Source: Tsuneonella amylolytica (lineage in GTDB: Bacteria > Pseudomonadota > Alphaproteobacteria > Sphingomonadales > Sphingomonadaceae). Taken from it: 64,000 nt of DNA. Every line of letters starts with the position of its first letter. Within the stretch, counting starts at the first letter, position 1. Shown here piece after piece: positions 31,660 to 48,578 of this stretch. Where the stretch lies: NCBI RefSeq assembly GCF_003626915.1, contig NZ_CP032570.1, positions 744,001 through 808,000 of the forward strand, written 5' to 3'. A program made the position numbers and the translations under genes. The notes beneath the pieces were generated by a model. The model was not told where the DNA came from, searched no databases, and saw nothing but the letters and a program-made list of their open reading frames with translations.

Positions 31660-31683
31660 GGACACTGTGACAGGTGTGACACG
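31660..31683 (+). repeat. 24-nt dispersed leader element, copy 1
   Basis: Begins GGACACTGTGACAGGTGTGA and ends CACG. An identical copy lies at 48555-48578 in the same orientation relative to its downstream gene. It contains two adjacent 9-bp palindromes, CTGTGACAG and GTGTGACAC. It ends 14 bases before the queE start codon. Confidence 0.85.
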
Positions 31684-31697
31684 CCCTCGGTGAGCGC

Positions 31698-32432
31698 ATG
31701 AACCTGACCCTCGCCACCGACGACACCGGCGAACCGGAGATCTTCGCCTCGCTACAGGGCGAAGGGCTGTCGGCGGGGGTGCCGTGCACGTTCGTCCGCC
31801 TCAGCCGGTGCAACCTCGCTTGCGTCTGGTGCGACACTGCCTACACCTGGCACTTCGATGGCGACGCGCGCCCGCATCGCGGCGGCAAGACCTACGACCG
31901 CAAGGCGAACCAGGTCGCCCTGTCCCCGCTCGAGGCCGCCCGCACGATCGACCGCCTCCCGCCGCGCCGCCTCGTCGTGACCGGGGGTGAGCCGCTGCTG
32001 CAGGCCACGGCTCTGGCGGAGATGGCCGCTCTCCTCCCCGATCACGCGATCGAGGTGGAGACCAACGGCACGGTCGAGCCCCCCGCAAGGTTCGACGCCT
32101 TCGTCGGGCACTATACCGTCAGTCCGAAGCTCGCGCACAGCGGCAACGCGGCGGAACTCGCCCTGCCCCCTGCCCGTCTCGCGGCCTGGGCCGCAGACCC
32201 GCGCGCCTGGTTCAAGTTCGTCGTCGCCGCCCCGGCCGACGTGACGCAGGTTCTCGCGCTGCAGGCCGGCTTCGGCATCACGGCGGACCGCATCTTCCTG
32301 ATGCCGGAAGGGACCGACACCCCCACCCTGCGTGCGCGCGAAGAATGGCTCGCCCCGCTCTGCGTCGAGCACGGCTTCCGCATGAGCGACCGGCTGCACA
32401 TCCACCTCTACGGCGACACGCGCGGAACATGA
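31698..32432 (+). CDS. queE: 7-carboxy-7-deazaguanine synthase (radical SAM)
   Basis: 244 residues. Converts 6-carboxytetrahydropterin to 7-carboxy-7-deazaguanine in queuosine precursor synthesis. Signature EIFASLQGEGLSAGVPCTFVR then the CX3CX2C cluster motif CNLACVWC (Cys38, 42, 45) followed by DTAYTW, which is distinctive for QueE. VVTGGEPLLQ and VETNGT contact SAM and substrate. No queC or queD gene is adjacent. Its stop overlaps the MATE gene start by 4 bases. Upstream sequence carries the 21-bp repeats and 24-nt element. Confidence 0.95.
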   Translation: MNLTLATDDTGEPEIFASLQGEGLSAGVPCTFVRLSRCNLACVWCDTAYTWHFDGDARPHRGGKTYDRKANQVALSPLEAARTIDRLPPRRLVVTGGEPLLQATALAEMAALLPDHAIEVETNGTVEPPARFDAFVGHYTVSPKLAHSGNAAELALPPARLAAWAADPRAWFKFVVAAPADVTQVLALQAGFGITADRIFLMPEGTDTPTLRAREEWLAPLCVEHGFRMSDRLHIHLYGDTRGT

Positions 32433-33928
32433 GCGAGACCGAAGCCCCGCCTGCCCCGATCCCCGGCCCAGCCCCGGCCGTCGGCATGCCGCGCCGCAAG
32501 GGTACCCGCGACCTGACCAGTGGCCCCGTATTCAAGACGCTGGTTCTGTTCGCATTGCCGACACTGGGCTCGAACCTGCTCCAGTCACTGAATGGTACGG
32601 TCAATTCGATCTGGGTCGGCCGGCTGATCGGCGAGGCCGCGCTGGCCGCGACCGCGAACGCCAACATCGTCATGTTCCTCGTGTTCTCGACCGTCTTCGG
32701 CTTCGGCATGGCGGCGACGGTCAAGATGGGGCAGTTCTTCGGCGCGGGGCAGGAGGATGCCGCCCGGCGGACCTTCGGTAGCGCGCTCGGCCTGTGCCTG
32801 GCGATGGCGGTGCTGGTGGCGACGCTCGGCTGGATATTCGCGCCCGCGTTGCTCGGAGCGCTCGGTACGCCCGGCGCATCCTACGCACTGGCTCTCGATT
32901 ACCTGCGGATCATCTTCGTCTCGATCCCCGGCGGCATCGTCACCGTGATGATCGCGATGGGGCTGCGCGGTGCGGGCGACAGCCGCACCCCGTTCCTGTT
33001 CATGATCCTGACCGTCGTCATCGACGTCGCGCTCAACCCCCTGCTGATCGCCGGGATCGGGCCGTTCCCCCGGCTCGGCATCGCGGGGTCGGCCACGGCG
33101 ACCGCGATCGCGAACTACGTCTCGCTCGCCGCGCTCGTGACCTATGTCTATGCCCGCGACCTGCCCTTGCGGCTGCGCGGAAGCGAGATCGGCTATCTGG
33201 TGCCGCGGCGGCAGGAACTCGGCTACATCGTCGGCAAGGGGTTGCCGATGGGCGCGCAGATGCTGCTGGTGTCGTCGGCCGGCATCGTCTTCATCGGTCT
33301 CGTCAACCGCGAAGGGCTGCTGGCGGCGGCGGCATACGGCGCGGCGCTGCAGCTGTGGACCTACATCCAGATGCCCGCGATGGCGATCGGTGCTGCGAAC
33401 AGCGCGATGGCCGCGCAGGCGATCGGTGCGCGTCTGCCCGGTCGGCTCGACCAGATCAGCCGCGCCGGCATCATCGCCAACCTTGCCATGACCGGCACGA
33501 TCACCGCTCTGATGCTGCTGTTCGACAGGGCCGCGCTGGTGCTATTCCTGGGACCTGATAGCCCGGCGGTCCCGCTTGCCCGGCATATCCAGTTCCTCGC
33601 CAGCTGGAGCTTCATCCTGTTCGGCGTCACCATCGTCCTGTTCGGCACGATGCGGGCCGGCGGCGTCGTGTGGGTGCCACTGATCGTGCTCGCCGTCGCG
33701 ATGTTCCCGGCGCGGCTCGGCTTCTACTACGGCTTTCGCGACATGCTCGGCCAGGACGCGCTGTGGCTCGCCTTTCCGTTCGGCTCGAGCGTGTCGATGC
33801 TGCTCGCGATCTGGTTTTACCGGCGCAAGGGGTGGCGCGAGAAAGGCCTCGCCATCAGCCCCGAGCGCGCGGCCGAAGAATGCCACACCGACGGCGACGC
33901 CGCCGGGCGCTTCAAGCCGGAGATGTAA
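32429..33928 (+). CDS. MATE-family multidrug/toxin exporter
   Basis: 499 residues, 12 predicted helices in two homologous halves. Begins at MSETEAPPAP with a Pro-rich cytosolic N-terminus. Typical MATE segments: LVLFALPTLGSNLLQSLNGT, VGRLIGEAALAATANANIV, GQFFGAGQEDAARRTFG, and in the second half KGLPMGAQMLLVSSAGIVF and NSAMAAQAIGARLPGRLDQI. Exports cationic compounds in exchange for Na+ or H+. ATGA overlap with queE suggests co-expression, though the functions are not obviously related. Confidence 0.92.
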   Translation: MSETEAPPAPIPGPAPAVGMPRRKGTRDLTSGPVFKTLVLFALPTLGSNLLQSLNGTVNSIWVGRLIGEAALAATANANIVMFLVFSTVFGFGMAATVKMGQFFGAGQEDAARRTFGSALGLCLAMAVLVATLGWIFAPALLGALGTPGASYALALDYLRIIFVSIPGGIVTVMIAMGLRGAGDSRTPFLFMILTVVIDVALNPLLIAGIGPFPRLGIAGSATATAIANYVSLAALVTYVYARDLPLRLRGSEIGYLVPRRQELGYIVGKGLPMGAQMLLVSSAGIVFIGLVNREGLLAAAAYGAALQLWTYIQMPAMAIGAANSAMAAQAIGARLPGRLDQISRAGIIANLAMTGTITALMLLFDRAALVLFLGPDSPAVPLARHIQFLASWSFILFGVTIVLFGTMRAGGVVWVPLIVLAVAMFPARLGFYYGFRDMLGQDALWLAFPFGSSVSMLLAIWFYRRKGWREKGLAISPERAAEECHTDGDAAGRFKPEM

Positions 33929-33932
33929 CCCC

Positions 33933-35615
33933 TTACTTGCCCTGGGAGCGCCAGCGCTGGACGATCCGGTGGACCCGGTCCTCCTCGCCGCCCGACTGGC
34001 GCCACAGCTCGACGAAGCTGGGATCGTCGGATGCCGGGCGCTTCTGCTCTTCCAGGTTGTCGAAGCTGACCCGGATCGGGATCGCCACGCCTTCGCCGCA
34101 GATGATGCACTCGCGGTTGCGAAGCGCCGGGATGCTGTCGAGGAAACCGCGCGCGCCCTCGGGCATGGCGGCCTTCACGAACGCCTGGTCGCGGTCGTTG
34201 TTGAGGCGCATCGAGATGATCGTGCCGCACTGGCTCAGCACGCCTTCCGCAAGGTCCGACGGACGCTGGGTGATGAGGCCGAGGCTGATGCCGTACTTGC
34301 GCCCTTCCTTTGCGATCCGGCTGAGGATGGTGCCCACGCTGGAGCCGTCGGCGTTCTTCTCGTTGGGGACGTAGCGGTGCGCTTCCTCGCAGACGAGCAG
34401 CACCGGGCGGGTCTTCTCCTCCCGTCCCCAGATGGCGAAGTCGAACACCAACCGGCTGAGCACCGCGACGACCGTGCTGGTGATGTCGCTCGGCACGCCC
34501 GACACGTCAATGATCGCGATGGGCTTGCCGCTCGAGGGCATGCGGAAGATCTTGGCGAGAAAATCCGCCATCGTGTCGCCCACGAGCATGCCGGAGAACA
34601 TGAACTGGTAGCGCGGATCGCTCTTCAGTTCTTCCAGCTTGGTCTTGATCCGCTGGTACGGCGCGGTGTTGGTCGCCTTGTCCAGCTTACCCATCTCGTT
34701 CTGGATCTCGTTCGACAGGTCCGACAGGAGATAGGGAATCGGCGAGTCGACGGTGATCTTGCCCATCGTTTCGGCCAGCCGGTTCTTGGCGCGCGCGCGC
34801 AACAGGCACTTGGCGAGGATGTCGGCATCGATCTGGCGATCGTTGCCGTTGGTCGTGAGCAGCACCTCGCAGTGCTCTTCGAAATTCATCAGCCAGTACG
34901 GCATCTGCAGATTGCTGACGTCGAGGATCAGGCCCGTCGTCCGGAACGCGGCGGAATATTCGCCGTGCGGGTCGATCATCAGGATGTGCCCGTCGGGCGC
35001 CGCCTCGCAGATGCGGTGGAGGATCAGCGCGGCGCTGGTCGACTTGCCGGTACCGGTCGAGCCGAGCAGCGCGAAGTGCTTGCCGAGCATCGCGTCGATG
35101 TAGAGGCCGGCGCGAATATCCCGGGTGGGATAGACCGTTCCGATCTGGATGTTGCTGCGTCCGTCGCTGGCGTAGATCTGCCTGAGGTCCGCGGTGGTCG
35201 CGGGATAGATAAGGGCACCGGGCACCGGATAGCGCGTGACGCCGCGGCGGAAGCCGTGGATGCGCCCCGTCAGCTTCTCCTCGTTGCCTTCGCCTAGGAA
35301 GTCGATGTTGGCGAGCACGCCGCCGCCCGCGCGCCGGTCCTGCTTCTGGTTGCGGACGCTGGCGAGCAGCCAAGAATTGCCGACACGAATCTTGACCTGG
35401 CTGCCGACCTGTCCGGCGAGCGCGATCGACGGGTCCTCGTCCGCCATGCACTCGTTGAGACGTTCGAGATCGAGCGCGATCTGCGATCCCGAGCCGGCGA
35501 TCTCGAGCACCACCCCGATGGGCTGCATCGCGTTGTCCGGGCCGGTATCGCCGCCCGCGGTCACGGCCTCCTGCGGCTGGAAGCTGTTGAAAGTCTGCCG
35601 GTCCATATCGCCCAT
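33933..35615 (-). CDS. HerA-like ATPase (DUF87)
   Basis: 560 residues. N-terminal HAS-barrel-like region (about 30-130), Walker A GSTGTGKS at 185-192, then ILMIDPHGEYSAAFRTTG, Walker B VLLVCEEAHRYVPNE, a sensor-like ISLGLITQRPSDLAEGVLSQ and the arginine region IISMRLNNDRDQAFV. These define the HerA/FtsK-superfamily hexameric translocases, usually paired with NurA nuclease in archaea. No nuclease gene adjoins. Likely DNA translocation in repair or conflict, not proven. A second ATG 3 codons in is possible. Confidence 0.9.
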   Translation of the reverse strand: MGDMDRQTFNSFQPQEAVTAGGDTGPDNAMQPIGVVLEIAGSGSQIALDLERLNECMADEDPSIALAGQVGSQVKIRVGNSWLLASVRNQKQDRRAGGGVLANIDFLGEGNEEKLTGRIHGFRRGVTRYPVPGALIYPATTADLRQIYASDGRSNIQIGTVYPTRDIRAGLYIDAMLGKHFALLGSTGTGKSTSAALILHRICEAAPDGHILMIDPHGEYSAAFRTTGLILDVSNLQMPYWLMNFEEHCEVLLTTNGNDRQIDADILAKCLLRARAKNRLAETMGKITVDSPIPYLLSDLSNEIQNEMGKLDKATNTAPYQRIKTKLEELKSDPRYQFMFSGMLVGDTMADFLAKIFRMPSSGKPIAIIDVSGVPSDITSTVVAVLSRLVFDFAIWGREEKTRPVLLVCEEAHRYVPNEKNADGSSVGTILSRIAKEGRKYGISLGLITQRPSDLAEGVLSQCGTIISMRLNNDRDQAFVKAAMPEGARGFLDSIPALRNRECIICGEGVAIPIRVSFDNLEEQKRPASDDPSFVELWRQSGGEEDRVHRIVQRWRSQGK

Positions 35616-35710
35616 GACGGGTGCGCCCCTCGATTAATCCCGGGGGGCGTGATGAAGCCGGTGCGGTTAAGATCGCGTCAACGCTATGGCAGGCGGAACC
35701 GCCGGCAGCG

Positions 35711-36481
35711 TCAGATCAGAGCGAACAGGCGACCCGCCATCCAGCCCATGCCGATCGACAGCCCGATCGCCATCAGCCCGTACCAGAACGCCTGGGCACG
35801 CGAGAACACCTCGACGAAGCGCTCGAACCCGACCTTGGCGACCTCGACCTCGGCCACCGCGGACGAAACCACACGCCCGTTGCTGACGGCGAAGGTTTCC
35901 GCGGTGTAGGTTCCCGTCGTGACGTTGGAGGGAAGCGCGATGCGCGCCTGGTAGAGCACCTGTTCACTGATGGAGACGCCGCGATCGTCCGACTTGTACA
36001 GGCCCTGCCGTTCCTTGAGGTCCACAAGCCCGGCAGTAAACCGCGCCTGCTCGGCCGGATCGATCTCCCCGGTGGGGGAAAGCTGGATGAAGTTCGTGCC
36101 GAACTCGTAGATCGCGGCGGTCTTGTCGTCGACGATCTCGGCGATCGGACGCGACGACGCGACCGCGAAGAACGACGGCGCGGAGCGGAAATCGGTACTT
36201 GCCGCGTTAATCCAGACGCCGCCGACCTTACTCTTCTCGCGAAGACGGATGGGTTCGGTCGGCCCCTTCAGCACGACGACCACATCGTATCCTCGCGCCG
36301 CCCGGGTGCCTTGCGGGTCGAGGATCGCGCCGAACAGGAGCAGTTCGGTACCGGTGAATCCCTGCCGCACGCGCACCTCGTGCTGGCTGACTTCGGGCAC
36401 GAGAATGGGATCGCGCTGCGCGTCCGCCGCCGCTGGCAACATCGCGGCTAGCATCGCGATGAAGGCGAGCAGCACCCTCAC
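35711..36481 (-). CDS. TIGR02186 family membrane-anchored protein
   Basis: 256 residues from a GTG that overlaps the upstream TauE stop (GTGA). Signal peptide VRVLLAFIAMLAAMLPAAA, then an exported beta-rich domain (ILVPEVSQHEVRVRQGFTG, ELLLFGAILDPQGTRAARGY) and one C-terminal transmembrane helix (FWYGLMAIGLSIGMGWMAG). The family is specific to alphaproteobacteria and regularly follows a TauE/SafE permease, as here. It is proposed to assist anion export. No enzymatic motif seen. Confidence 0.85.
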   Translation of the reverse strand: MRVLLAFIAMLAAMLPAAADAQRDPILVPEVSQHEVRVRQGFTGTELLLFGAILDPQGTRAARGYDVVVVLKGPTEPIRLREKSKVGGVWINAASTDFRSAPSFFAVASSRPIAEIVDDKTAAIYEFGTNFIQLSPTGEIDPAEQARFTAGLVDLKERQGLYKSDDRGVSISEQVLYQARIALPSNVTTGTYTAETFAVSNGRVVSSAVAEVEVAKVGFERFVEVFSRAQAFWYGLMAIGLSIGMGWMAGRLFALI

Positions 36482-37392
36482 AGCGGCGCGATCGTATAGA
36501 TTTCGTCGGGTCTGACCCCCAGGCCCCACAGCATTCGCAAGGCGATCGCCAGGACGATCGCGGCGAGGATGAGGCGGAGCTGTTCGGGCTTCGCCTTCTG
36601 CGCCAGCTGGTCGCCGATTTGCGCACCCGAAACCGAGCCCAGCAACAACAGACCGGCGAGAACGATGTCGACCGCATGGGTCGTCAACGCATGCATCATC
36701 GTGGTGACCATCGTCACGAACAGGATATTGAACAGGCTCGTGCCGACGACCACCCCAGCGCTCATGCCGAGGATATAGAGCATAGCGGGAACGAGGATGA
36801 ACCCGCCGCCCACGCCCATCAGCATCGTCAGGATGCCGACGCCGACACCAAGCAGCAAGGGTGCGAGCGGCGAGATGTAGAGGCCGGACCGGTAGAACCG
36901 CCAGCGCCCGGGCAAGGCGGCGACGAGCGGGTGGTGACGGCGCTTGGCCGCGCGCGGCTTGTCGCCGCTCCGGGACGCCCGGATGGAGGCCCATGCCTCG
37001 CGCGCCATCAGCGTGCCGATAGTGCCGAGCATCATCACGTAGAGGAAGTTGATGACCGTATCGATCTGGCCGATCGACTGGAAAAACCGGAAGAGGAGCG
37101 CGCCGATGCCGCTGCCCACGAAGCCTCCCGCGATGGTGACCCCGCCCAGCTTGTAGTCGACCCCGCCCCGGCGGTTGTGGGCGAGCACGCCCGACACGCT
37201 CGCCCCGGTCACCTGGGTCGAGGCGGATGCAGCAGCCACCGTCGGCGGGACGCCGTAGAAAATCAGCAGCGGCGTCGTCAGAAACCCGCCGCCGACCCCG
37301 AACAGGCCCGACAGGACCCCGGTCAGCGCGCCCAGCGCGATAATTACCAGCCCGTTCACCGAGAGGTTCGCGATGGGCAGGTAAACGTCCAT
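36478..37392 (-). CDS. TauE/SafE-family permease (TSUP)
   Basis: 304 residues, 7-8 helices. Characteristic glycine-rich repeats in both halves: GVLSGLFGVGGGFLTTPLLI and LTMLMGVGGGFILVPAMLYI, the TSUP hallmark. Probably exports sulfite, sulfonate or a similar organic anion; exact substrate unknown. Coupled to the TIGR02186 gene. Confidence 0.93.
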   Translation of the reverse strand: MDVYLPIANLSVNGLVIIALGALTGVLSGLFGVGGGFLTTPLLIFYGVPPTVAAASASTQVTGASVSGVLAHNRRGGVDYKLGGVTIAGGFVGSGIGALLFRFFQSIGQIDTVINFLYVMMLGTIGTLMAREAWASIRASRSGDKPRAAKRRHHPLVAALPGRWRFYRSGLYISPLAPLLLGVGVGILTMLMGVGGGFILVPAMLYILGMSAGVVVGTSLFNILFVTMVTTMMHALTTHAVDIVLAGLLLLGSVSGAQIGDQLAQKAKPEQLRLILAAIVLAIALRMLWGLGVRPDEIYTIAPL

Positions 37393-37438
37393 GGCCAGCC
37401 CCTATGCCAGCCGCGCCCCGATAGGAAGCGGCGCGTCG

Positions 37439-38557
37439 TTAGAAGCCCGTCGCAACCGTCACCGCGACCCCGCCGCCCGGCCGTGCGTTTCCGGCAACCG
37501 GCACGCGGTAATCCACACTCACACGCGCCGGCACGCCGGCTTCCTGCAGGTCGAGCGTCAGGGATGGTCCCAAGTCGAGCCTGCCGGCAAAGCGCTGCGC
37601 CCCGCCCCATGCGCCCGCGCCGAGCCGGACTTGCGCGCCGCCGACATTTGCGACGGCCCGGTCGAGCCTGGCCTGCCCGTCGACGAAGCCGGTGGCGTAG
37701 CGTCCACCAACCCAACCCGCCTGACCGTACCCTTCGAGCCGGAACCCCGCGGGCAGGTCGATCGGGGCGAGTTCCGAAACCGCGATCAGCGCGGGTCGGA
37801 TTTCCGTCTCGCCTCCGATACGGGTCGCGCGCGCTTCGGCTTGAAGCCGCACTGGTATCCGCGGGATGGGCCGCGCCGATATTCCTGCTGCGAGGTCGCT
37901 CTGCGCGAACAGCCCGGGTGCGTGCGTCGCCCGGACGTAGAGGCCTGGCGCCACGCCGCCCTTCGCTATGTCGAAGCGGACGACCGCCCCGCCCTGCGTG
38001 CCGCCATACACGGTCGGCGCAGGTCCGCCGGTCGCGACCCGCCCGATGCCGCTGCCCGGTCGCCACGCGAACCACGCGTCGGCATGAAACCGCCCCGGCT
38101 TTTTGAGCGACATCGAAACACCAGCCGGAACGAGCGGCGAACTCGCGGCGCGAGAAGCCGGATGATCGGCCATGCGGCGATCCGGCGATGGTTGCCCCAA
38201 CCCATTGGACGGCAAAGCCGACAAACCGGTCGGCGGACCGAGAAAGACCGAGGGCGTGAAGCTTTCCGGCCTTTCGACCGTCGGACGGTGGGCGGGCCTC
38301 GTGAGCTTTTCCGCCCATCGAACCGACCCAACCTGTGATATCGGCTCGGCTGTGTGCGAAGCGATCCAAGCCGGGGCGGTCGAACCCGCGGGCGATCCGA
38401 CCGGAACTGTATAGGTGTCACGCAAAGCCTCGGCGGGGAGAAACGGCGTTTCCCACACCATCGCCCTGACCCCGGCCCATCCCGCTAGCAGAAGCAGCAG
38501 CGCCGCCAGCGGCTCCCCACGCCGCCGTGCCCCGAGGCCTGCCGCCGGACCGTTCAC
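37439..38557 (-). CDS. Beta-barrel protein paired with NfrB-like glycosyltransferase (NfrA C-terminal-like)
   Basis: 372 residues from a GTG overlapping the upstream stop (GTGA). Residues about 16-38 are a hydrophobic helix or uncleaved signal (PLAALLLLLAGWAGVRAMVW). A Pro/Ser-rich linker runs to about 150. Then about 220 residues of alternating beta strands follow (ADAWFAWRPGSGIGRVATG, LEGYGQAGWVGGRYATGFV, RLGAGAWGGAQRFAGRLDLG), ending VAVTVATGF with a terminal Phe, the BAM signal. This resembles the outer-membrane barrel of NfrA, which with NfrB secretes a glycan. It lacks the TPR part of NfrA. Homology is a judgement from pattern and context. Confidence 0.65.
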   Translation of the reverse strand: MNGPAAGLGARRRGEPLAALLLLLAGWAGVRAMVWETPFLPAEALRDTYTVPVGSPAGSTAPAWIASHTAEPISQVGSVRWAEKLTRPAHRPTVERPESFTPSVFLGPPTGLSALPSNGLGQPSPDRRMADHPASRAASSPLVPAGVSMSLKKPGRFHADAWFAWRPGSGIGRVATGGPAPTVYGGTQGGAVVRFDIAKGGVAPGLYVRATHAPGLFAQSDLAAGISARPIPRIPVRLQAEARATRIGGETEIRPALIAVSELAPIDLPAGFRLEGYGQAGWVGGRYATGFVDGQARLDRAVANVGGAQVRLGAGAWGGAQRFAGRLDLGPSLTLDLQEAGVPARVSVDYRVPVAGNARPGGGVAVTVATGF

Positions 38558-39954
38558 GTCGCCTGCTCGCTCGCGGCGATGGCCGGATGGACCAAGTGGC
38601 GCGTCTTGTCCCACCGCGGCGCACGTCCGCTCAGGGTGGCGATATATCCGGTGAACGCGCGCCGCCCCGCCATGATCGCGATGATGTTGGCGACCGGTAT
38701 TCGCAGGACCGACCGCAACCCTTCGGCCCAGCCGTATTCCCGCGCCGTGAAAGCGAAGCGCCAGGCCGCGCGCCAGACGAAGCTTGCGAGGTTGAAGACA
38801 AGCAGGGCCCAAATCCATGGCGACGGTTCGAGCGCGGCGCCCACCCCGATCCATTCGAGCGCCAGACCGATGGCGACAAGGGCGAGAAGCAAATAAGCGG
38901 ACGCCAGTACGAGCGCGGTCAACGGGCCGCGCCGGTCGCGCAATCGCATCCAGGTATCGATCACGCTGTCGCTCCAGCCCAGCCGGTCCCACGACTGCAA
39001 GGCGATTCCGTGCACCCAGCGCGTCTTCTGCCGGACGGCCCAGTCGATCCGGTGCGGAAACACGGCGCGCGTCGCAACCAGCCGTCCGTCCGCGTGGCGC
39101 ACGCGCACGAACCGGGTCCGTCCTCCCAGGTCGGCGATGCCGAGCCCGAGTTCGTAGTCTTCCGTCAGGCACTCGGCGGCGAAGGGACCGTCGCCATCGC
39201 GCCGGCGCGCCAGCCAGCCGAGCGCACGCCGCGATATCGCGCAACCGACCCCTGCGGTCGGCAACCCCGCACCGAGCGCATCGCGAACGACCATCGCCTT
39301 GCCGTGGGCTTCCGCGAATTCCTCGCAATAATGCGATGCGATCCAGCGCGACCGCGCGATGGGTTCGGGCAGCACCGGCAACTGGACGAGATCGGCGACG
39401 GCCAGTCCCTGATCGAGCAGTCCCAGCGCTGCGGGATCGACCATGTCCTCGGCGTCGTGCATCACGATCATCCGGAGCGCCCGACCGGAGCGGCGCTCGT
39501 CCTGCTCGATCGCGCGGTACAGCCGGTTGAGACAATCCGCCTTCGTGGTGGGTCCGTCGCGATCGTGTATGACGAGACGCACGCGGGGATCGCCGTCTGC
39601 CGCGACCGCGACGGCTTCGATCGAGGCAGGATCGTTGCGGTAGCATCCGACATAGACCGCCAGATCGGCGTGCGGCCAGGCGCCGAGCATATGGCGCACC
39701 GTCGCGCCGATCACGCCCGCTTCCCGCCACGCCGGCACGATCACTGCTGCCGGTCCGGACAGGGGCGCATCAGCATCGTGCCCGTGCGAAAGCCGCCCGG
39801 TTCGCGCGCGGCCCGTTAGCCGGAGCCAAATCCACGCAAAATCGATTGCGAGTTCGTCTATCGCCCCGACCAAAAAGAAGATACCGGCGAACAGCAACAG
39901 TTCGTGCTGCACCAGCACGAGCCATTCGGCAGGTGAAAATCCCCCGTTCGGCAA
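38554..39954 (-). CDS. NfrB-like glycosyltransferase, family 2
   Basis: About 466 residues. An N-terminal helix (LLLFAGIFFLVGAIDELAID) precedes a GT2 domain: AVIVPAWREAGVIGATVRHM, VYVGCYRNDP, the DxD-like VMHDAEDMVDP, ECLTEDYELGLGIADLGGR and the QxxRW-type RQKTRWVHGIALQSWDRLGW. Two to three C-terminal helices follow. The match is to NfrB (phage N4 adsorption protein B), but the C-terminal MshEN c-di-GMP-binding domain of E. coli NfrB is absent. The start is uncertain: no ATG, and the TTG at 39954 has GGGGG 7 bases upstream. A TTG at 40014 is the outer limit. Confidence 0.85.
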   Translation of the reverse strand: MPNGGFSPAEWLVLVQHELLLFAGIFFLVGAIDELAIDFAWIWLRLTGRARTGRLSHGHDADAPLSGPAAVIVPAWREAGVIGATVRHMLGAWPHADLAVYVGCYRNDPASIEAVAVAADGDPRVRLVIHDRDGPTTKADCLNRLYRAIEQDERRSGRALRMIVMHDAEDMVDPAALGLLDQGLAVADLVQLPVLPEPIARSRWIASHYCEEFAEAHGKAMVVRDALGAGLPTAGVGCAISRRALGWLARRRDGDGPFAAECLTEDYELGLGIADLGGRTRFVRVRHADGRLVATRAVFPHRIDWAVRQKTRWVHGIALQSWDRLGWSDSVIDTWMRLRDRRGPLTALVLASAYLLLALVAIGLALEWIGVGAALEPSPWIWALLVFNLASFVWRAAWRFAFTAREYGWAEGLRSVLRIPVANIIAIMAGRRAFTGYIATLSGRAPRWDKTRHLVHPAIAASEQAT

Positions 39955-40041
39955 GTTGGCGACCCCCGTATTGCCCCTTAGGTGTCGACTAACGAGGGAA
40001 GTAGCGGCTGGCAACGCAAACTATCGATTGAGAATAACGGA

Positions 40042-41247: not shown

Positions 41248-41434
41248 CAAGTCGTACCGCCAGGGCTGTCGCCTTCGAGGAACGCTGGCGACGGATCGTT
41301 CCGCCGAAGCGCCTGAGCGCATCGATGGTCTTGCCAGCGCCCGTCAGAACAATGGCGGCGCTCGGCGTGTGGTCCGGCCGCCCGGGGAGGGGCAGGAAGG
41401 TCGGGACGGACGGATCCGCCTGCCCGTTCCCGTC
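41248..41434. other. 187-base gap between nhaA and the TorF-type porin
   Basis: Convergent genes flank it. A long open frame without a start runs through it on the minus strand (TFLPLPGRPDHTPSAAIVL and onward). I cannot link it to a family; it could be a decayed gene end or chance. A 7-bp inverted repeat GGGCAGG/CCTGCCC near its right end may act in termination. Confidence 0.3.
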
Positions 41435-42196
41435 TCAGAAACTCGCCCCCAGCGAGAACACGACCGCGTCGTCGGTGAAACCGTCGATCGATGGCCCTTC
41501 CGTGCCGACGTAGCTGACGCCGAGCGTCAGGCTGCCGAGCACCGTGGCGCTGGCGCCCAGCGACCAATCGAATCCGGTCCTGTCGCCCGTGCCGGCCAGA
41601 AACGACGGAGCGAGCGCGCCGTCGGTGTAACCGAGATGCGCCGACAGGCTCACCGGCGTGTTCGGGATGGCGGTGCCCAGTTCGGTGTGGATGTAGAGGT
41701 TGTCGTCGCCGCCCAGCGAATCCTGCTTCCACGCGTAGTTCGCGCCCAGCTTCGCCTCGACCGGGCCGAGAGTCGTCGAAACCGTGGCGTAGGGTTCCCA
41801 GTACTGCGCCTTCACGCCCTTCGCGTTCGTGGGATAGGCATAGAGGAGCACACCGACATCGATGCCGACCCCCTCGGCCACGTCGCCCGACCAGCCCCCG
41901 AACAGGTCGAGTTCCATGTCGCCGTACACGTCGGTACCGCCGTCATCGATCGAGGAGGCCCAGGTGCCGGCGTAAAAGCCGCTGTCGTGGGTGACCGTGA
42001 CGCCACCCTGGATCGCCGGGTCACCGCCGGACAGCGAGACACCGCGAAAGCGATAGTCGGATACGAGCGTAACGCTTCCCGAAACGGTGAGGCCGTCGGA
42101 CGAAGCGGTTTCGTCCTGCGCGAAAGCGGGGGCGGCCGAGAGGGCTGCGAACGACAGAAACGATGCGGCGGCAAAGCCGCGGATGGACGTGAGCAT
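41435..42196 (-). CDS. TorF-family putative porin (TIGR02001)
   Basis: 253 residues. Strong AAGGAG ribosome site 7 bases before the ATG at 42196 fixes the start. Signal peptide MLTSIRGFAAASFLSFAALS with cleavage after APAFA. TIGR02001 features: the early GSVTLVSDYRFRGVSLSGGD and PAIQGGVTVTHDSGFYAGTW, and a C-terminal VVFSLGASF with terminal Phe. Outer-membrane channel of unknown specificity. Its upstream region shares a 12-bp motif with the beta-barrel gene at 780-1613. Confidence 0.88.
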   Translation of the reverse strand: MLTSIRGFAAASFLSFAALSAAPAFAQDETASSDGLTVSGSVTLVSDYRFRGVSLSGGDPAIQGGVTVTHDSGFYAGTWASSIDDGGTDVYGDMELDLFGGWSGDVAEGVGIDVGVLLYAYPTNAKGVKAQYWEPYATVSTTLGPVEAKLGANYAWKQDSLGGDDNLYIHTELGTAIPNTPVSLSAHLGYTDGALAPSFLAGTGDRTGFDWSLGASATVLGSLTLGVSYVGTEGPSIDGFTDDAVVFSLGASF

Positions 42197-42303
42197 GGCA
42201 AACTCCTTGGGGTTTGTGCTGTCGTCCCACCTGCGCACACGCCGGGGGTTCGTCGTTATTGCGAACCGTCTTCCGGCATATGCGCAACTTTCTTGCCAAG
42301 TCA

Positions 42304-42315
42304 TGCTGCAATGCA
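42304..42315 (+). promoter_or_regulatory. 12-bp motif shared with the beta-barrel upstream region
   Basis: TGCTGCAATGCA on the plus strand, 108-119 bases upstream of the TorF-type porin start; second copy at 1708-1719. See that entry for the comparison. Confidence 0.35.
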
Positions 42316-42467
42316 CAAGATAAAAATGCCGGTTGGCGTAAACAGTCTTTCGGGTGTTGGATTTGAGCATCACCGGCCTGCAATTAAGCCGCCGCTCATC
42401 GTTTGCCGAGCATTGCGCGGTCGCCTATGCGGCCCCTCTCCCATGGAAATCGACCTCTAGCTCCGAC

Positions 42468-43271
42468 ATGTTCGCTTCTCTTCGCAACATCTTCAACGCG
42501 CGTCCCGTTGCCCCGCCTCCGGCCGTTCCGGACGGCACGCGGTATTACGCGGTGGGAGACATCCACGGTCGCTGCGATCTGTTCGAAGCGCTGGCCGATG
42601 CCATCGACGAAGACGACCGCCGCGCCGGACCTGCGCGGACGACGGTCGTCCTGCTCGGGGACCTCGTCGATCGCGGACCCGACAGCGCGGGCGTGATCGC
42701 GCGCGCCCGGCGTTGGGGTGACGAGCGCAAGGTCGAACTGCTGGTGGGCAATCATGAAGAGATGTTCCTCGACTCGTTCGAGGACACCGGCATCCTGCGC
42801 CACTTCCTGCGACACGGCGGGCGCCAGACCGTGCTCAGCTACGGCATTCCGCAGCAAGTCTACGACGAAGCCACACTCGAGGAACTGCAGGAGCTGATGG
42901 CAGCGCGGGTCCCCCGGGAGGACCGAGCCTATCTTGCCGCCGGGCGCGACTATCTCGTCGCAGGAGACTACCTGTTCGTCCATGCCGGCATCGCCCCCGA
43001 TGTCGCGCTGGACCAGCAGTCCAGCCATCACATGCGCTGGATCCGCGAGCCGTTCCTCGATCACGCCGATCCGCACGAACATTTCGTCGTTCACGGCCAT
43101 ACCATCACCGACGGTATCGACGGGCGTATCAACCGGGTGGGAATCGACACCGGCGCATACCGTTCGGGCAGGTTGACCGCGCTGGTGCTGGAGGGCACGG
43201 AGCGCCGCACGATCCAAGCTGTCGAGACCGACGGTACGATCGCCATCGAAACGGGGGCAGTGGCCGCATGA
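42468..43271 (+). CDS. Serine/threonine-type metallophosphoesterase
   Basis: 267 residues. Dinuclear-metal signatures in order: GDIHGR at 30-35, GDLVDRG at 64-70, GNHE at 94-97, then LFVHAG and VHGHT. The order and length fit bacterial PrpA/ApaH-like phosphatases (PPP superfamily). Substrate not predictable. Its TGA overlaps the next gene's ATG by 4 bases, coupling it to the UDP-glucose dehydrogenase. Confidence 0.9.
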   Translation: MFASLRNIFNARPVAPPPAVPDGTRYYAVGDIHGRCDLFEALADAIDEDDRRAGPARTTVVLLGDLVDRGPDSAGVIARARRWGDERKVELLVGNHEEMFLDSFEDTGILRHFLRHGGRQTVLSYGIPQQVYDEATLEELQELMAARVPREDRAYLAAGRDYLVAGDYLFVHAGIAPDVALDQQSSHHMRWIREPFLDHADPHEHFVVHGHTITDGIDGRINRVGIDTGAYRSGRLTALVLEGTERRTIQAVETDGTIAIETGAVAA

Positions 43272-44578
43272 AGATCGCCATGGTGGGTTCGGGTTACGTC
43301 GGGCTGGTGTCGGGGGCGTGCTTCGCCGACTTCGGTCACGATGTCGTCTGCATCGACAAGGACCAGACCAAGATCGACAGGCTGCACGACGGCGTCATGC
43401 CGATCTACGAGCCGGGGCTCGACGCGCTGGTCGAGACCAACGTCGAGGCCGGTCGCCTCACCTTCACGACCGATCTGGCCGAAGGTATCCGCGGCGCCGC
43501 GGCGATCTTCATCGCGGTCGGCACGCCGAGCCGCCGCGGCGACGGACACGCCGATCTCACCTACGTCCACGCTGTCGCGAAGGAAGTGGGCGAGACGCTG
43601 GAGCACGACTGCGTGGTGGTCACCAAGTCGACCGTGCCGGTCGGCACCGGCGACGAGGTCGAGCGCATCATCGCCGACACCGGCTGCGCGCACCGGGTAT
43701 CGGTGGTCTCGAACCCGGAATTCCTGCGCGAAGGCGCTGCGATCGGCGATTTCAAGCGGCCCGACCGCATCGTGATCGGGGCGGAGGACGAATTCGGGCG
43801 CGAAACGATGCGGCAGGTCTATCGCCCGCTGCATCTTAACCAGTCGCCCATCCTGTTCACCAACCGGCGCACGAGTGAGCTCATCAAGTACGCCGCCAAC
43901 GCCTTCCTCGCGACCAAGATCACCTTCATCAACGAGATGGCGGATCTGTGCGAGAAGGTCGGGGCAGATGTCCAGGACGTCAGCCGCGGGATCGGCATGG
44001 ACGGGCGCATCGGACCCAAGTTCCTCCATGCCGGCCCCGGCTACGGCGGCAGTTGCTTTCCCAAGGATACCCTGGCCCTGCTCAAGACGGCCGAGGATGC
44101 GGGCGCGCCGAGCCGGATCGTCGAGGCGGTGGTCAAGGTCAACGACAGCCGCAAGCGCGCGATGGGCCGCAAGGTGCTCGACGCGCTGGGCGGACCCGAG
44201 GCGGCACGTGGCAAGACCGCGGCGCTTCTCGGATTGACCTTCAAGCCCAACACCGACGACATGCGCGACAGCCCGGCCATCGCGGTCGCGCAGGCGCTCG
44301 ATGACGCGGGCGTGGCTGTGAAGGCCTACGACCCCGAAGGCATGGAACTCGCCGCGCCGTTGATGCCGGGCGTGACTATGTGCACCAGCGCCTACGACGC
44401 TATCGAGGGTGCCGACGCGGTCGTCATCGTGACCGAGTGGGACGCCTTTCGTGCGCTCGACCTCGCCAGGGTCAAGGACCTCGCCAATGCGCCGGTCCTG
44501 GTCGACCTGCGCAACGTCTATCGGCCCGGCGAAGTGCGCGCGGCGGGCTTCGAGTATTCGAGCATCGGCCGCGCCTGA
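43268..44578 (+). CDS. ugd: UDP-glucose 6-dehydrogenase
   Basis: 436 residues. Oxidises UDP-glucose to UDP-glucuronate with two NAD+. GSGYVGL nucleotide-binding loop at 7-13; STVPVGTGDEVE; SNPEFLREGAAIGDF; the catalytic Cys263 in GYGGSCFPKDTLALL; and LGLTFKPNTDDMRDSPAI. The family also includes GDP-mannose dehydrogenase, but length and motifs favour UDP-glucose. Provides uronic acid for exopolysaccharide or glycolipid synthesis (sphingomonads use glucuronosyl lipids). Confidence 0.94.
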   Translation: MKIAMVGSGYVGLVSGACFADFGHDVVCIDKDQTKIDRLHDGVMPIYEPGLDALVETNVEAGRLTFTTDLAEGIRGAAAIFIAVGTPSRRGDGHADLTYVHAVAKEVGETLEHDCVVVTKSTVPVGTGDEVERIIADTGCAHRVSVVSNPEFLREGAAIGDFKRPDRIVIGAEDEFGRETMRQVYRPLHLNQSPILFTNRRTSELIKYAANAFLATKITFINEMADLCEKVGADVQDVSRGIGMDGRIGPKFLHAGPGYGGSCFPKDTLALLKTAEDAGAPSRIVEAVVKVNDSRKRAMGRKVLDALGGPEAARGKTAALLGLTFKPNTDDMRDSPAIAVAQALDDAGVAVKAYDPEGMELAAPLMPGVTMCTSAYDAIEGADAVVIVTEWDAFRALDLARVKDLANAPVLVDLRNVYRPGEVRAAGFEYSSIGRA

Positions 44579-44592
44579 TCGCAGCCGGCAAT

Positions 44593-44621
44593 GGCGGCGC
44601 CGGGTCCTCCCCGGCGCCGCC
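44593..44621. terminator. Hairpin between convergent ugd and S46 peptidase genes
   Basis: 12-bp GC-only stem (GGCGGCGCCGGG with CCCGGCGCCGCC) and a 5-base loop. No T-run, but stability and placement between convergent stops support a two-way terminator. Confidence 0.65.
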
Positions 44622-44626
44622 TCGCA

Positions 44627-46675
44627 TCACTTGGCCGCCAGTTCCTTGACCAGGGCCGGTGCCGGGTAGATCTTCTCGAGCGCTTCCTGCACCGCGTCGG
44701 TCGAGACCACGACGGTGCGGTTGAGCGTGCCGTCGTAGCCGTAGTTGCCGCCCAGCGAATGGATGTTGCCGTCGAACGCGGCACCGATCACCGTGCCCGC
44801 GCGGTCGATCACCGGCGAGCCCGAGTTGCCGCCGATGATGTCGTTCGTGGTGACGAAATCGTAGGTGGCGGCGGGGTCGATCCGGTTCTTGCGAGCGGCG
44901 AAGGCTGGCGCGACGTCGTATGGCGCGTTGCCGGTCGCGCGATCGAAAGTGCCGCCCATCGTGGTCTGGTAAGGCACCTGGTTGCCGCGCTCGGTCCACC
45001 CGGCGACCTTGCCGTAGCTGATCCGCAGGGTGAACGTCGCATCGGGGTACAGCGTGTCGCCGTAGGCGGCGAACCGCGCGTCGGCGAGCTGGCTGCCAGC
45101 GATCGCCAGCGGGCCGGAGTAGGCGGCATCGGTCGCCTTCTTGAGCTCACGCTGCCGGTCGGCGAGGCGCAGGGCGTACACGATCATCGGATCGTCCGAT
45201 GCGCGCACGGCCTTCATGCCCCCGTCCCACAGGGCCTTGCGGACCGCCGGATCGGCAAGCTTGCTGCCCTCGACCAGCGACTTGGCGAGGCCTTCGGGGC
45301 TCGCCTTGCCGAGCAGCAGCTTGGTGTCCGGATCGTCGGCGCCGAGGTACTCGCGCGCTTTCGACAGGCTCCATTCCAGCGTCAGCTCGTCGAGCCACGG
45401 GTAGATCGGCCGCTCGTCGAGCAGGCGCTTCTCGGTCAGCGGCAGGGCGCTGTCGGTGAAACCGGGCAGGCGTTCGCCATTGGGCTTGTCCCGTTCCTGC
45501 GCCGCATAGACCAGCGTCTGGGCGTACCCGTAAAGATCGCTCGAAGGCTGGAGGAACCGGGCCGGCAGGTACAGCTTGCGATATTCGGCCACCGCCCCAT
45601 CCACCGTGGTCCACGGATCGCCGACGGCGGGATTGTTGGCGCTCTGCGTTTTGAGCGCGGTTTCGTTGGCGGCGAGCTGACCTGTGAAAGCCGGGTCGTT
45701 GAGCGCCTTGGTCCGGCCGATATAGACCTTGAGGCTGTTTTCGATCCCGTTGAGGGTGTCGAGGCCCTCCCGCTCGTGCTGGGGGCTCTCGTCCATCGCG
45801 CGGATGAGGCGCCCGCGCAGTTCGGACATCGTCGCCAGCGTCGTGGGCAGGCGCACCTCGCGTTCGAAGGCGATCTGGCTGCCGGTCCACAGGCGGCTCG
45901 TCGAACCAGGGTTGCCGACCACGAAAGTGACTTCGCCTTCCTTCGGCGGACGCGGGTTCCACTTGAGATGGTTGGGCGTCGAGATCGGCTTGCCGTTCTC
46001 GTAGGCGCGCAGGAAGCTGGCATCCATCGAGTAGCGCGGGAAGTTGAAGTTGTCCGGATCGCCGCCGAACGTGGCCGCGCGGTCTTCGGGTGCCCAGACG
46101 AGGCGAACGTCGGAATACTTGCGATACGTGTAGAGCTTGTACTGGCCGCCGCCGAACAGCGTGACCACCTGACAGCGGGTTGTGGCGAGGTCGGTGCAGT
46201 TCGCCTTCTCGATCTCGGCGATCTTGGCATCGCGTGCCTTGGTCAGCGCCTCACCGGTAAAGTTGCCGAAGGCACCTTTCACGTCGCTCGTGACATCGGT
46301 GATCTTTGTGACGACTTCGGCTTGCTGGCCCGGACACTTCAGTTCCATCTCGCGCCGGTCGGAAATGAAGCCGCGATCGAGGTAGTCATTTGCATCGCTC
46401 GAATTGTCGAACAGACAACTGGCGATACAGTGGTGGTTGGTGAGGATGAGGCCCGAGTTCGAGACGAAGCTTGCCGAGCAGCCGCCGGTCAGGCGCACGG
46501 CGGCGCCCTGGACCCGGTCGAGCCACGCCTGGTCGGGCGCCCAGCCGTATTCCGCCCGCATCTTGGCCGCGGGGAAGCCGTCGAACGTCCACATCCCCTC
46601 GTCCGCGGCGGCGGGGGCGGCAAGGCCCAGTCCGGCGATCGCGGCGGCGGAGGTCAAGAGACCGATTCGAAGCAT
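44627..46675 (-). CDS. S46-family dipeptidyl-peptidase (DPP7/DPP11-like)
   Basis: 682 residues. Start at 46675 with AGGAG 7 bases upstream; signal peptide MLRIGLLTSAAAIAGLGLAA then PAAADEG. Catalytic triad signatures: His in LILTNHHCIASC (residues about 77-88), Asp in ATFGGDPDNFNFPRYS, Ser in GGNSGSPVIDRAG. The position that discriminates P1 specificity appears as Gly in AAFDGNIHSL, suggesting a DPP7-like preference for hydrophobic P1 residues, an inference from family knowledge. Periplasmic enzyme releasing dipeptides from peptide N-termini. Confidence 0.93.
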   Translation of the reverse strand: MLRIGLLTSAAAIAGLGLAAPAAADEGMWTFDGFPAAKMRAEYGWAPDQAWLDRVQGAAVRLTGGCSASFVSNSGLILTNHHCIASCLFDNSSDANDYLDRGFISDRREMELKCPGQQAEVVTKITDVTSDVKGAFGNFTGEALTKARDAKIAEIEKANCTDLATTRCQVVTLFGGGQYKLYTYRKYSDVRLVWAPEDRAATFGGDPDNFNFPRYSMDASFLRAYENGKPISTPNHLKWNPRPPKEGEVTFVVGNPGSTSRLWTGSQIAFEREVRLPTTLATMSELRGRLIRAMDESPQHEREGLDTLNGIENSLKVYIGRTKALNDPAFTGQLAANETALKTQSANNPAVGDPWTTVDGAVAEYRKLYLPARFLQPSSDLYGYAQTLVYAAQERDKPNGERLPGFTDSALPLTEKRLLDERPIYPWLDELTLEWSLSKAREYLGADDPDTKLLLGKASPEGLAKSLVEGSKLADPAVRKALWDGGMKAVRASDDPMIVYALRLADRQRELKKATDAAYSGPLAIAGSQLADARFAAYGDTLYPDATFTLRISYGKVAGWTERGNQVPYQTTMGGTFDRATGNAPYDVAPAFAARKNRIDPAATYDFVTTNDIIGGNSGSPVIDRAGTVIGAAFDGNIHSLGGNYGYDGTLNRTVVVSTDAVQEALEKIYPAPALVKELAAK

Positions 46676-46750
46676 GCATACTCTCCTGGTTACGTTTGCA
46701 ACCGGGTATGCCGCGGGCGATCCAAAAGTCCATGCAGTCTGTCGAGTCAA

Positions 46751-47172
46751 ATTGCCAGGAGGCCTGTAAGCCGGGTTCTGTCCGGCGGCCGGTTTCCTTT
46801 TGGACCCTCGCCGCCGGGGCAGCCATTCATCTCGGCGACGGATCGCTCCGTGCGCTCGAGCAGCCAACCCGGGCCTCTCGGGACGAAACGTCCCTGCCAC
46901 CTGTCCGAAGACACATGGCACGAGGCCCCTATTTGGCCTTGCTCCGGGTGGGGTTTACCTTGCCGCTTGCCGTTGCCGGAAGCGCGGTGCGCTCTTACCG
47001 CACCCTTTCAGCCTTACCTCGAGCCCAATCAGATCGGGTGAGGCGGTCTACTCTCTGTGGCACTGTCCCTATGGTTGCCCACGGCGGGCGTTACCCGCCA
47101 CCCTTGTTTCGTGGAGCCCGGACTTTCCTCGAACACCCGAAGGTGCACGCGGCTGCCCGGCCTCCTGGCAAA
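46751..47172 (-). ncRNA. rnpB: RNase P RNA
   Basis: Read on the minus strand the 5' end GCCAGGAGGCCGGGCAGCCG and the 3' end GGCCTCCTGGC close helix P1. The universally conserved GAGGAAAGTCCGGGC lies about 40 bases in, and ACAGTGCCACAGAGAGTAGA (CR II/III-like region) further along. Bacterial type A of about 420 nt. Matures the 5' ends of tRNAs. Its 5' end lies only about 4 bases beyond the stop codon of the amidase gene, so its promoter must be inside that gene or it is processed from the amidase transcript. Confidence 0.95.
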
Positions 47173-47175
47173 TCG

Positions 47176-47883
47176 CTATCTAGTCCGTCCCTGGTCGCGA
47201 TCCAAGAGCAACTGGAACAGTATCGCGCGAACCTGCCCATCGATCTCGCCGTCGATCTTCTCGGGCCGCCAGCGGCGCTGGAACGCCTCCACCGCCTTGT
47301 GCCCGTCGGTCACGTCGTATCCGTAGCGCTCCAGCGCGAGGTAGAACGAGGCGTCGTTGTCGAACGGGTCGCCCTGTTCGAGTTTTTCCGGCCGGGGAAG
47401 GCAGAGTCCGTATCCGGCCAGCCGCTCCCACGGGAAAAGCTCGCCCGGGTCAATCTTGCGCGCGGGCGCCACGTCGGAATGGCCGACCACGTTGGCGCGC
47501 GGAATGTCGTGGTCCTTCACGATTCGCGCCAGTAGCGGAACCAGCGCCTCGAACTGCGCATCGGAGAACGCGCGGTATCCACCCGCATGGCCGGGATGAT
47601 CGAGCTCTATGCCGATCGAGGCGGAATTCACGTCCGGATGCCCGCGCCAGTAGCTGATGCCCGCATGCCAGGCCCGCTTGTCCTCGTCGACCAGACGGAT
47701 CACCTCGCCCGCCTCGGTAATCAGGTAGTGCGCGCTGACCTTGGCTTCGGGATCGGTGAGCTTTTCAAGCGCGGTCTCGACCGGCTGCATCTCGGTATAG
47801 TGGATCACCACCATGCTGATCGGCAGCGCGCGCTCGTCCCAGTTGGGCGACGGTTGGTGGCGGTGGACCAGTTCGTCGCGCAT
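47176..47883 (-). CDS. N-acetylmuramoyl-L-alanine amidase (AmpD/AmiD type)
   Basis: 235 residues, no signal peptide visible. Amidase_2 domain: MVVIHYTEMQPVETALEKLT with the zinc His, VSAHYLITEAGEVIRLV, WHAGISYWRGHPDVNSASIG with the second His, and the distal VVGHSDVAPARKIDPGELFP, where the third His and Asp/Lys complete the site. A C-terminal peptidoglycan-binding-like region (YGYDVTDGHKAVEAFQRRW) follows. Cleaves the amide between muramic acid and L-Ala; without a signal peptide it may act in muropeptide recycling. Four bases separate it from chpT upstream. Confidence 0.93.
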   Translation of the reverse strand: MRDELVHRHQPSPNWDERALPISMVVIHYTEMQPVETALEKLTDPEAKVSAHYLITEAGEVIRLVDEDKRAWHAGISYWRGHPDVNSASIGIELDHPGHAGGYRAFSDAQFEALVPLLARIVKDHDIPRANVVGHSDVAPARKIDPGELFPWERLAGYGLCLPRPEKLEQGDPFDNDASFYLALERYGYDVTDGHKAVEAFQRRWRPEKIDGEIDGQVRAILFQLLLDRDQGRTR

Positions 47884-47887
47884 GATT

Positions 47888-48532
47888 TCAGCCTTCGGGA
47901 AGGACCGCGCCGAGGACCAGCGCGTCTGCGGACAGCATGTATTGCAGGCCGCCGCCCGCCTGCCGGGCGACGAGGCTGAGCATGTGCGCGGCTGCGGTGC
48001 GGCTCGACAGTTCGCCCGCGGGCAGGCTGCCCTCCAGCGCGCGGCCGATCGTCTCGTCGAAGGCAATGCGCGGACCGACGGCGCGTACGACGATCTCGCT
48101 CGCCCCGCCGCGGCTCTCGGCGCCGACGTCGAGCGTGCCGCCGCGGACCAGCGCGTCGAGGCCCATCTGCGCGAAGTTGAGCAGCACCTTCACCGCGCCT
48201 TTCGGCATGCGGGGTTCGGCCAGCGCCCAGTTGAGCTCGACCCGCTTGGCCCCGGCGACCAGCGCTTCGACAACCGAGCGGGCTTCGTCCACCGGCACGC
48301 TTTCGCCGAAGCCGCCCGCCGCACCGAAGGCGAGGCGAAAGAACTTGAGCTTGTCGGCGCTCGCCTTCGCGCTCTGTTCGAGCAGTTCGAGGCAGCGCTG
48401 CCGCATCTCGGGATCGCGCTCGTCGGCGAGCAGTTCGAGCCCGTTGGTCATCGCGCCGACTGGCGACAGGAGATCGTGGCAGAGGCGCGAGCAGAGGAGG
48501 GCGGCGAGATCGAGTTGGTCGGTATCGTTCAT
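47888..48532 (-). CDS. chpT: Histidine phosphotransferase ChpT
   Basis: 214 residues. Two-domain phosphotransferase that passes phosphate from CckA to CtrA and CpdR. The phospho-acceptor lies in LAALLCSRLCHDLLSPVGAM (His of CHDLLSP), followed by the helical hairpin TNGLELLADERDPEMRQRCL. The C-terminal pseudo-ATPase domain lacks an ATP lid (PKGAVKVLLNFAQMGLDALV, ELSSRTAAAHMLSLVARQ). Start at MNDTDQLDL. A 24-nt element identical to the queE leader ends 22 bases upstream. It is evidence that the CtrA pathway operates in this organism. Confidence 0.93.
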   Translation of the reverse strand: MNDTDQLDLAALLCSRLCHDLLSPVGAMTNGLELLADERDPEMRQRCLELLEQSAKASADKLKFFRLAFGAAGGFGESVPVDEARSVVEALVAGAKRVELNWALAEPRMPKGAVKVLLNFAQMGLDALVRGGTLDVGAESRGGASEIVVRAVGPRIAFDETIGRALEGSLPAGELSSRTAAAHMLSLVARQAGGGLQYMLSADALVLGAVLPEG

Positions 48533-48554
48533 CGAGGGAGTGCGGTTCCTTAAC

Positions 48555-48578
48555 CGTGTCACACCTGTCACAGTGTCC
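48555..48578 (-). repeat. 24-nt dispersed leader element, copy 2
   Basis: On the minus strand it is identical over 24 bases to 31660-31683, and ends 22 bases before the chpT ATG, in the same sense relative to the gene as in the queE leader. The reading frame differs between the two sites, so conservation is at the DNA/RNA level. Confidence 0.85.

Follow-up and report, generated by a model that had tools for sequence, protein, structure and literature searches.

The 64-kb stretch of Tsuneonella amylolytica DNA analysed here (NZ_CP032570.1, positions 744,001 to 808,000; hereafter the window) raises a simple question: why does one and the same 24-nt sequence, GGACACTGTGACAGGTGTGACACG, stand in front of both queE and chpT? 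The answer we favour is that the 24-mer is one of many sites bound by a helix-turn-helix (HTH) protein of the chromosome, a relative of the small subunit of phage terminases (TerS), and that these sites may serve in the control of transcription. Two copies without a single mismatch lie in the window, each followed by a start codon in the same sense (Table 1); the first-pass annotation of this DNA had both points right, as well as the different frames of the two copies relative to queE and chpT. Its claim that such a match is beyond chance also holds, as none was seen in 100 dinucleotide shuffles (0 expected). No third copy was found in the window with up to three mismatches allowed. The same tolerance applied to the whole genome, a single contig of 2.79 Mb, as that annotation had suggested, gave eight copies and 0 in a reversed-pattern control. 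The exact core TGTGACANNTGTGACA occurs 11 times, and with two mismatches allowed it gave 24 matches vs. one in the control.

The 24-mer had been described as two abutting 9-bp palindromes. Its halves are indeed odd-length near-palindromes in T. amylolytica, but palindromy is not what is conserved: the elements of relatives (GTGTGACAA, GTGTTCCAT and GTGGTCCAT) have mostly lost it and kept a direct repeat of nine. Because this architecture persists with other words (the three bases nnn below), we take the direct repeat as the conserved unit, which, judged from sequence comparison, is an A/T tract, CCW, GGAC and two direct 9-mers GTGnnnCAn. Positions -10 and -9 are A or T in 91% and 89%, respectively, of the 112 sites; for the 45 copies linked to a terS-like gene the shares are 100% and 98%. 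The tract exists both as an A-run and as a T-run.

Among 397 genomes of the family, 164 matched the generic pattern GGAYNSTGNNNCANGYGNNNCA, 61 of them at least five times (a manual tally; control matches never exceeded three per genome). Outside the family, six of 83 genomes had one match each, all with unlike words, and control matches were found in three. Within each listed genome the word is mostly uniform, being TGA, TGT, TTC, CTC or GTC, or TAA in the first half-site with GTC, sometimes TAA, in the second. The queE of genome G009 carries a GTC-type element (G009:C1:2329830-2329851 (-)); the other elements listed for G009 are of the TGA type. In the genus, six of the 11 genomes share the word, and all 11 carry the element or a degenerate form of it in the chpT leader, with differing words. 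The leader reads GGACTGTGTTCCATGTGTTCCATC in G003 and GGACTGTGGTCCATGCGGTCCACG in G005, with G006 nearly as G005; the form is poor in G001 and G004 and degenerate in G008, one of the six word-sharing genomes.

The candidate reader of the element is encoded outside the window, at ~297 kb of the same genome, between uvrA (~303 kb) and the convergent argG (~293 kb). Its coding region carries a copy of the site, and the element lies inside the open reading frame (ORF) of the HTH protein in all seven TGA-word genomes whose gene was examined. Both uvrA and argG flank the gene in five of seven loci read (L300, L297, L329, L310 and L373), and in the stretch shown for the other two we recognised argG (L338) or uvrA (L316), all names being given by reading. 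All 39 chosen members matched PHROG 4044 (terminase small subunit); Pfam Sf6_terminase was matched by only six of the 39 at E<=0.01, and below the cut-off in one protein for which the cut-off was shown. A single member touched a transposase PHROG (E 0.00099). An AlphaFold2 monomer model (mean predicted local distance difference test score, pLDDT, 79.8) matched 11 models of a viral fold library at E<=0.001 (best 1.1e-5), of which five are named TerS, one Gp58 and five are nameless.

Two sets of loci, sharing some genomes, link this gene to the element. In 27 of the 30 best loci an element with the genome's own word lies 414-756 nt behind the HTH. Among the best 80 of 217 loci, the pattern found the element in 45 (40 within the ORF and five behind it), and visual inspection added 17 more, most of which fall into two other word types: SRxH proteins with GTGTCTC, and a Novosphingobium type with GTGTCAACC. 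Since a period-9 scan is unspecific (in 35 loci it also yielded many repeats at periods 12 and 15), these 17 rest on a GTG-type tandem read by eye, most with GGAC before it. In 12 of 13 loci looked at, the motif T[T/G]TCCTAC stands no more than 1 kb upstream of the HTH. We infer that the site in or near the terS-like gene would be the recognition site of its product. In 80 hand-picked genomes, a TerS-like match at E<=1e-30 was present in 40 of 43 element-positive and two of 36 element-negative ones, figures for which the cut-off was set afterwards and which shared ancestry confounds. In G006, both leaders read have altered elements, and the best TerS-like match reaches only E 1.2e-4.

Further evidence comes from covariation. 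We tested 110 alignment columns for association with the second word, in 45 proteins and in 24 representatives below 75% identity. The top two columns were neighbouring residues of the recognition helix in the 45 rows (z 13.9 and 13.7), and the same two came first and second among the representatives (z 7.2 and 4.6); the residue preceding them was fourth (z 9.3) and tied third (4.3), respectively. The residues YR go with TGA, HQ with GTC (alone or with TAA), RS with TGT and RA with TCT; AQ or PQ, once RQ, after S go with TTC, and RQ or PQ after A with TCA. The sisters L321 and L312 differ in this way, SRSA with TGT vs. SRAT with TCT. On a tree of 65 rows with the helix masked, to be read with caution for its few columns, 13 word changes were counted (minimum 7; shuffled mean 34.8). 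The site and the reading helix thus appear to change together between species, and this covariation makes it very probable that the TerS-like protein binds the element.

What binding would do depends on where the sites lie. We gathered 113 sites, with gene calls from a home-made codon model and some classes set by hand (the TerS-like class, the lysozyme class and the mispredicted leaders L135 and L149). The set holds 10 of the 11 own-genome sites (the lepB site was missed), 16 of 17 from G009, 17 of 18 from G010, 20 of 38 from G016, two of 43 from G194, two of 37 from G133 and one of seven from G167; a reverse duplicate (L169) was dropped. A sense gene starts within 160 nt in 84 sites, so that the proposed tabulation against start codons gave a strong leader bias in one orientation. 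Fifteen sites follow the 3' end of a sense gene and face a convergent gene on the far side; seven are in the TerS-like gene, three in a lysozyme-like ORF, two antisense and two elsewhere. In the lysozyme-like ORF copies (L006, L098 and L156) the element encodes a linker such as DSVTGVT. The gap between element and start codon, taken in 82 leaders, is 10-60 nt in 58, shorter in three and longer in 21, and it is often conserved, being 22-24 nt for chpT in seven genomes and 33, 33, 33 and 21 nt for ppdK. The genes concerned, named from sequence reading rather than from a database, include chpT, queE, ruvA, ubiA, cyoE, pdxH, nadA, lepB, ppdK, moaC, aroQ, fumC, pyrC and others. The emphasis first placed on chpT, a cell-cycle gene, is therefore not borne out for it or for queE, as the targets are unrelated housekeeping genes.

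Most sites also follow one promoter-like motif. T[T/G]TCCTA[C/A] stands 85-240 nt upstream in 88 of the 113 sites and in none of the control stretches 300-455 nt downstream; 49 of 94 motifs located within 60-300 nt of an element fall at -101 to -110. The 8-mer TTTCCTAC occurs twice in the window, in the queE and chpT leaders. Often the element lies ~105 nt 3' of the TTTCCTAC motif, itself followed by a weak GCYA-type box, and ~70 nt 3' of an ATG. As an ATG stands 30-43 nt behind the motif in 70 of 88, the transcript is suggested to begin at it. In 24 of 70 cases the stop codon of the upstream ORF so opened overlaps the start codon of the following gene as ATGA; that of queE spans the element, and its TGA overlaps the queE ATG. 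A peptide as the conserved product was considered and rejected: some upstream ORFs encode ...GQCDKCDK... across the element, but the frames are split 34/10/26 over 70 ORFs, and among the motif-bearing sites frame A is open in 66, C in 64 and B in 50, so that A is not favoured over C. As upstream ORFs cross the element in more than one frame, selection on the peptide is discounted. A search of the own genome for TTTCCTAC followed after 25-31 nt by an ATG gave 19 matches at 18 places (controls, three), about half of these places being without such an element.

The first-pass annotation had offered a regulator site, a target of small RNA (sRNA) and a mobile repeat as readings of DNA or RNA under selection. 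The first of these is the best of the three, given the share of sense leaders (84 of 113) and the covarying HTH protein. We picture one subunit of the protein on each 9-mer, with the A/T tract possibly read by its shape, as reported for HK97 TerS (PMC11331095). Sites would lie downstream of the presumed start site and ahead of the start codon, 3' of upstream stop codons, and within the protein's own gene; antisense sites are rare (two of 113). The common effect that would fit this placement is a one-sided obstacle to RNA polymerase. That the protein controls transcription by stopping the elongating polymerase before it reaches the start codon, and feeds back on the gene that encodes it, is in our judgement evenly balanced.

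Several observations weigh against this account. The 15 sites at 3' ends and the 10 inside ORFs would not be predicted for a promoter operator, and the targets form no coherent pathway. queE has no element in two relatives, in G003, where it directly follows valS (named by reading) with no cassette between, and in G007, where a similar motif lies directly 5' of the ATG; this and the copies at 3' ends or inside ORFs agree in part with what the first-pass annotation had named as refuting its reading. On the side of the protein, the best fold match in PDB, Sf6 TerS, is weak (E 0.23, probability 0.75; none at E<=0.001), and no terminase came up when PDB was searched by sequence. Three of the 43 element-positive genomes (G028, G300 and G420) are without a match at E<=1e-30, and two of the 36 negative ones have such a match; among the best 80 of 217 loci, the repeat is absent from 17 and ambiguous in one. 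As for covariation, column 57, outside the helix, ranked third of 110 in the full set (z 9.9), and the TerS-like helix of G009 is of the TGA type despite the GTC word at queE. The SHQ helix is the same in GTC/GTC and TAA/GTC genomes, for which reason the first half-site is left unexplained.

The unrelated targets, together with the sites at 3' ends and inside ORFs, would suit a protein bound for chromosome organisation or insulation, with no direct effect on the genes downstream. We regard this as rather unlikely, since most sites lie in leaders in sense orientation and are linked to one promoter-like motif. The relatives of the protein are packaging proteins, and the sites could be pac-like starts of a gene transfer agent (GTA) or a cryptic phage, tolerated by the leaders; we retain this rival because P22 keeps its pac within its terS gene (PMC9611059). 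It is quite unlikely, as (i) the gene sits between uvrA and argG, and by eye, over the first 60 residues of each neighbour, no phage or packaging gene was recognised near it in seven loci (no search for the large terminase, TerL, was made), (ii) most sites lie 3' of one promoter-like motif and 5' of start codons, and (iii) the one GTA TerS described is without HTH, and its authors knew of no GTA packaging sites (PMC6854486). A phage origin of the gene was also looked for and set aside: viral_contigs held no relative in a scan seeded with two short peptides, and the 1300 nt that begin with the terS of one phage relative (32% identity) contain no period-9 repeat.

An sRNA or an RNA-binding protein could instead read the element in the mRNA leader. 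The sense strand and the distance to the start codon (10-60 nt in 58 of 82 leaders) fit such control, as does a hairpin before the element (z<-1.5) in 22 of 78 promoter-type sites vs. 11% of controls. The same hairpin test was positive for two of the 13 array sites and for none of the 23 others, the A/T tract occurs as either run, the frame is not fixed, no Rfam family was matched at gathering score, and the covarying HTH protein would go unaccounted for; RNA-level control is therefore very unlikely. In the window, RNase P RNA and a tRNA were the only Rfam matches at gathering score; in 14 loci searched at E<=1, RNase P appeared twice beside two below-cut-off matches, one of them a chance-level nrdJ RNA match (E 0.84, L181:1971-2046 (+)) overlapping the element on the opposite strand. 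A U-run terminator was dropped, since the hairpins that precede the element are on the whole weak and some tracts are runs of A. A sigma-factor or core-promoter reading of the 24-mer was dropped by reasoning alone, because its best conserved part would be the spacer.

Hardly credible is a selfish or mobile short repeat without function, its covariation with the helix arising from shared ancestry or from a partner resembling a transposase. Sequences close to the element do resemble one another within a genome, no cassette separates valS from queE in G003, and copies occur at 3' ends and inside ORFs, in part as a mobile repeat would have it; the leader bias, the chpT element kept at 22-24 nt in seven genomes and the repeated joint switching of word and helix speak against it. 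Likeness within a genome is mostly limited to ~45-60 nt around the element, and near-identical recent copies with a shared interior were not found: the middles of most cassettes are dissimilar and their ends conserved. The exceptions are the CAAGGCGAC arrays and five G016 copies (L181, L182, L183, L186 and L190; 75-79% over 131-147 nt).

Table 1. Features of the queE and chpT leaders, and RNA genes in the window.
Feature	Position	Strand	Remarks
Element copy 5' of queE	31660..31683	+	GGAC, direct 9-mers CTGTGACAG and GTGTGACAC, then G
Element copy 5' of chpT	48555..48578	-	Same letters as the queE copy
A/T tract and pyrimidine stretch TTTCCCCTCT	31650..31659	+	Directly 5' of GGAC; position-wise conservation
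queE coding sequence	31698..32432	+	ATG 14 nt 3' of the element
chpT coding sequence	47888..48532	-	ATG 22 nt 3' of the element
Promoter-like motif TTTTCCTAC, queE leader	31510..31518	+	Such a motif lies upstream of most element copies
Promoter-like motif TTTCCTAC, chpT leader	48677..48684	-	
queE upstream ORF, 51 codons and stop	31546..31701	+	ATG 35 nt 3' of the TTTCCTAC start; peptide not conserved
chpT upstream ORF	48568..48648	-	Begins 36 nt 3' of the TTTCCTAC start; TGA within the element
Four CAAGGCGAC units, 21-nt period	31576..31648	+	3' of the promoter motif and 5' of the element
Bacterial RNase P class A RNA	46751-47168	-	
tRNA	60981-61062	-	

Some leaders have further features. Arrays of CAAGGCGAC with variable spacers, mostly of 20-22 nt period, lie between motif and element in leaders of G008, G010 and the own genome, and in the queE leaders of G005, G009, G001 and G004 an inverted repeat of the GTTCAG...CTGAAC type separates the element from the start codon. 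The own genome also has another family of leaders behind TTTCCTAC (L379, L380, L391, L392 and L393), with GGAAGGTGACAA..GACAC-like sequences and, further on, an A-run, C's and a GTGTGACAC-like stretch; its genes resemble lpd, a K+ efflux protein, stomatin and hrpB by sequence reading. Three more similar-looking HTH proteins of the own genome have their ATG 25-31 nt behind TTTCCTAC (L383 at 547371, L389 at 1725595 and L382 at 448336), and L383 and L389 show the A-run and GTGACA motif of the second family just 3' of their stop codons. These three are perhaps paralogous systems.

We infer that what may be new here is a TerS-site pair put to use on the chromosome; a literature search, thin on subscription journals, turned up neither this element nor a regulator resembling a terminase. 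It is attractive to speculate that TerS-like proteins form a class of bacterial gene regulators, each with a pac-like site in or behind its own gene and others in tens of leaders, in which a few residues of the recognition helix set the three-base word, the word, helix and site set have repeatedly switched together, and paralogous systems of one cell use the TTTCCTAC promoter in common, transcription starting at an ATG; to this generalisation we would give an even chance. If true, a packaging-type protein works as a chromosomal regulator, one that changes its specificity and its set of sites unusually fast inside a single family, and dozens of natural helix-site pairs make a readable code for this HTH directly testable.

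Among known systems, interspersed repeats of the repetitive extragenic palindrome (REP) or miniature inverted-repeat transposable element (MITE) type are likewise short and multi-copy, with genome-specific variants. Unlike them, the element keeps a conserved relation to a promoter-like motif, and its covarying HTH protein is not a transposase by family match. RcGTA gp1 offers another chromosomal TerS in an alphaproteobacterium, but one reported to be without HTH and to bind DNA non-specifically (PMC6854486). Phage TerS proteins with their pac or cos sites (P22, SPP1, Sf6 and HK97) resemble the present pair in the PHROG 4044 match, in a short asymmetric site in or beside the gene itself, as in P22 pac, and in an A/T tract beside specific bases, as in HK97. 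The way in which small terminases recognise DNA has been unclear (PMC9611059), HK97 being an exception solved in 2024; its TerS, too, requires an A/T tract, in either orientation with little difference (PMC11331095). The pair differs from those of phages in the fixed housekeeping locus of the gene, with no large terminase recognised beside it by eye, in the many chromosomal sites in gene leaders, and in two direct 9-mers with a drifting word. With one-component regulators whose operators lie past the start site (e.g., the reported LacI roadblock at O3), it would share a presumed single DNA-binding protein and tens of similar sites, one of them in the protein's own gene; it is set apart from them by the TerS-type match, the direct 9-bp repeats, the sense orientation with an A/T tract, and a word and helix that switch many times within one family.

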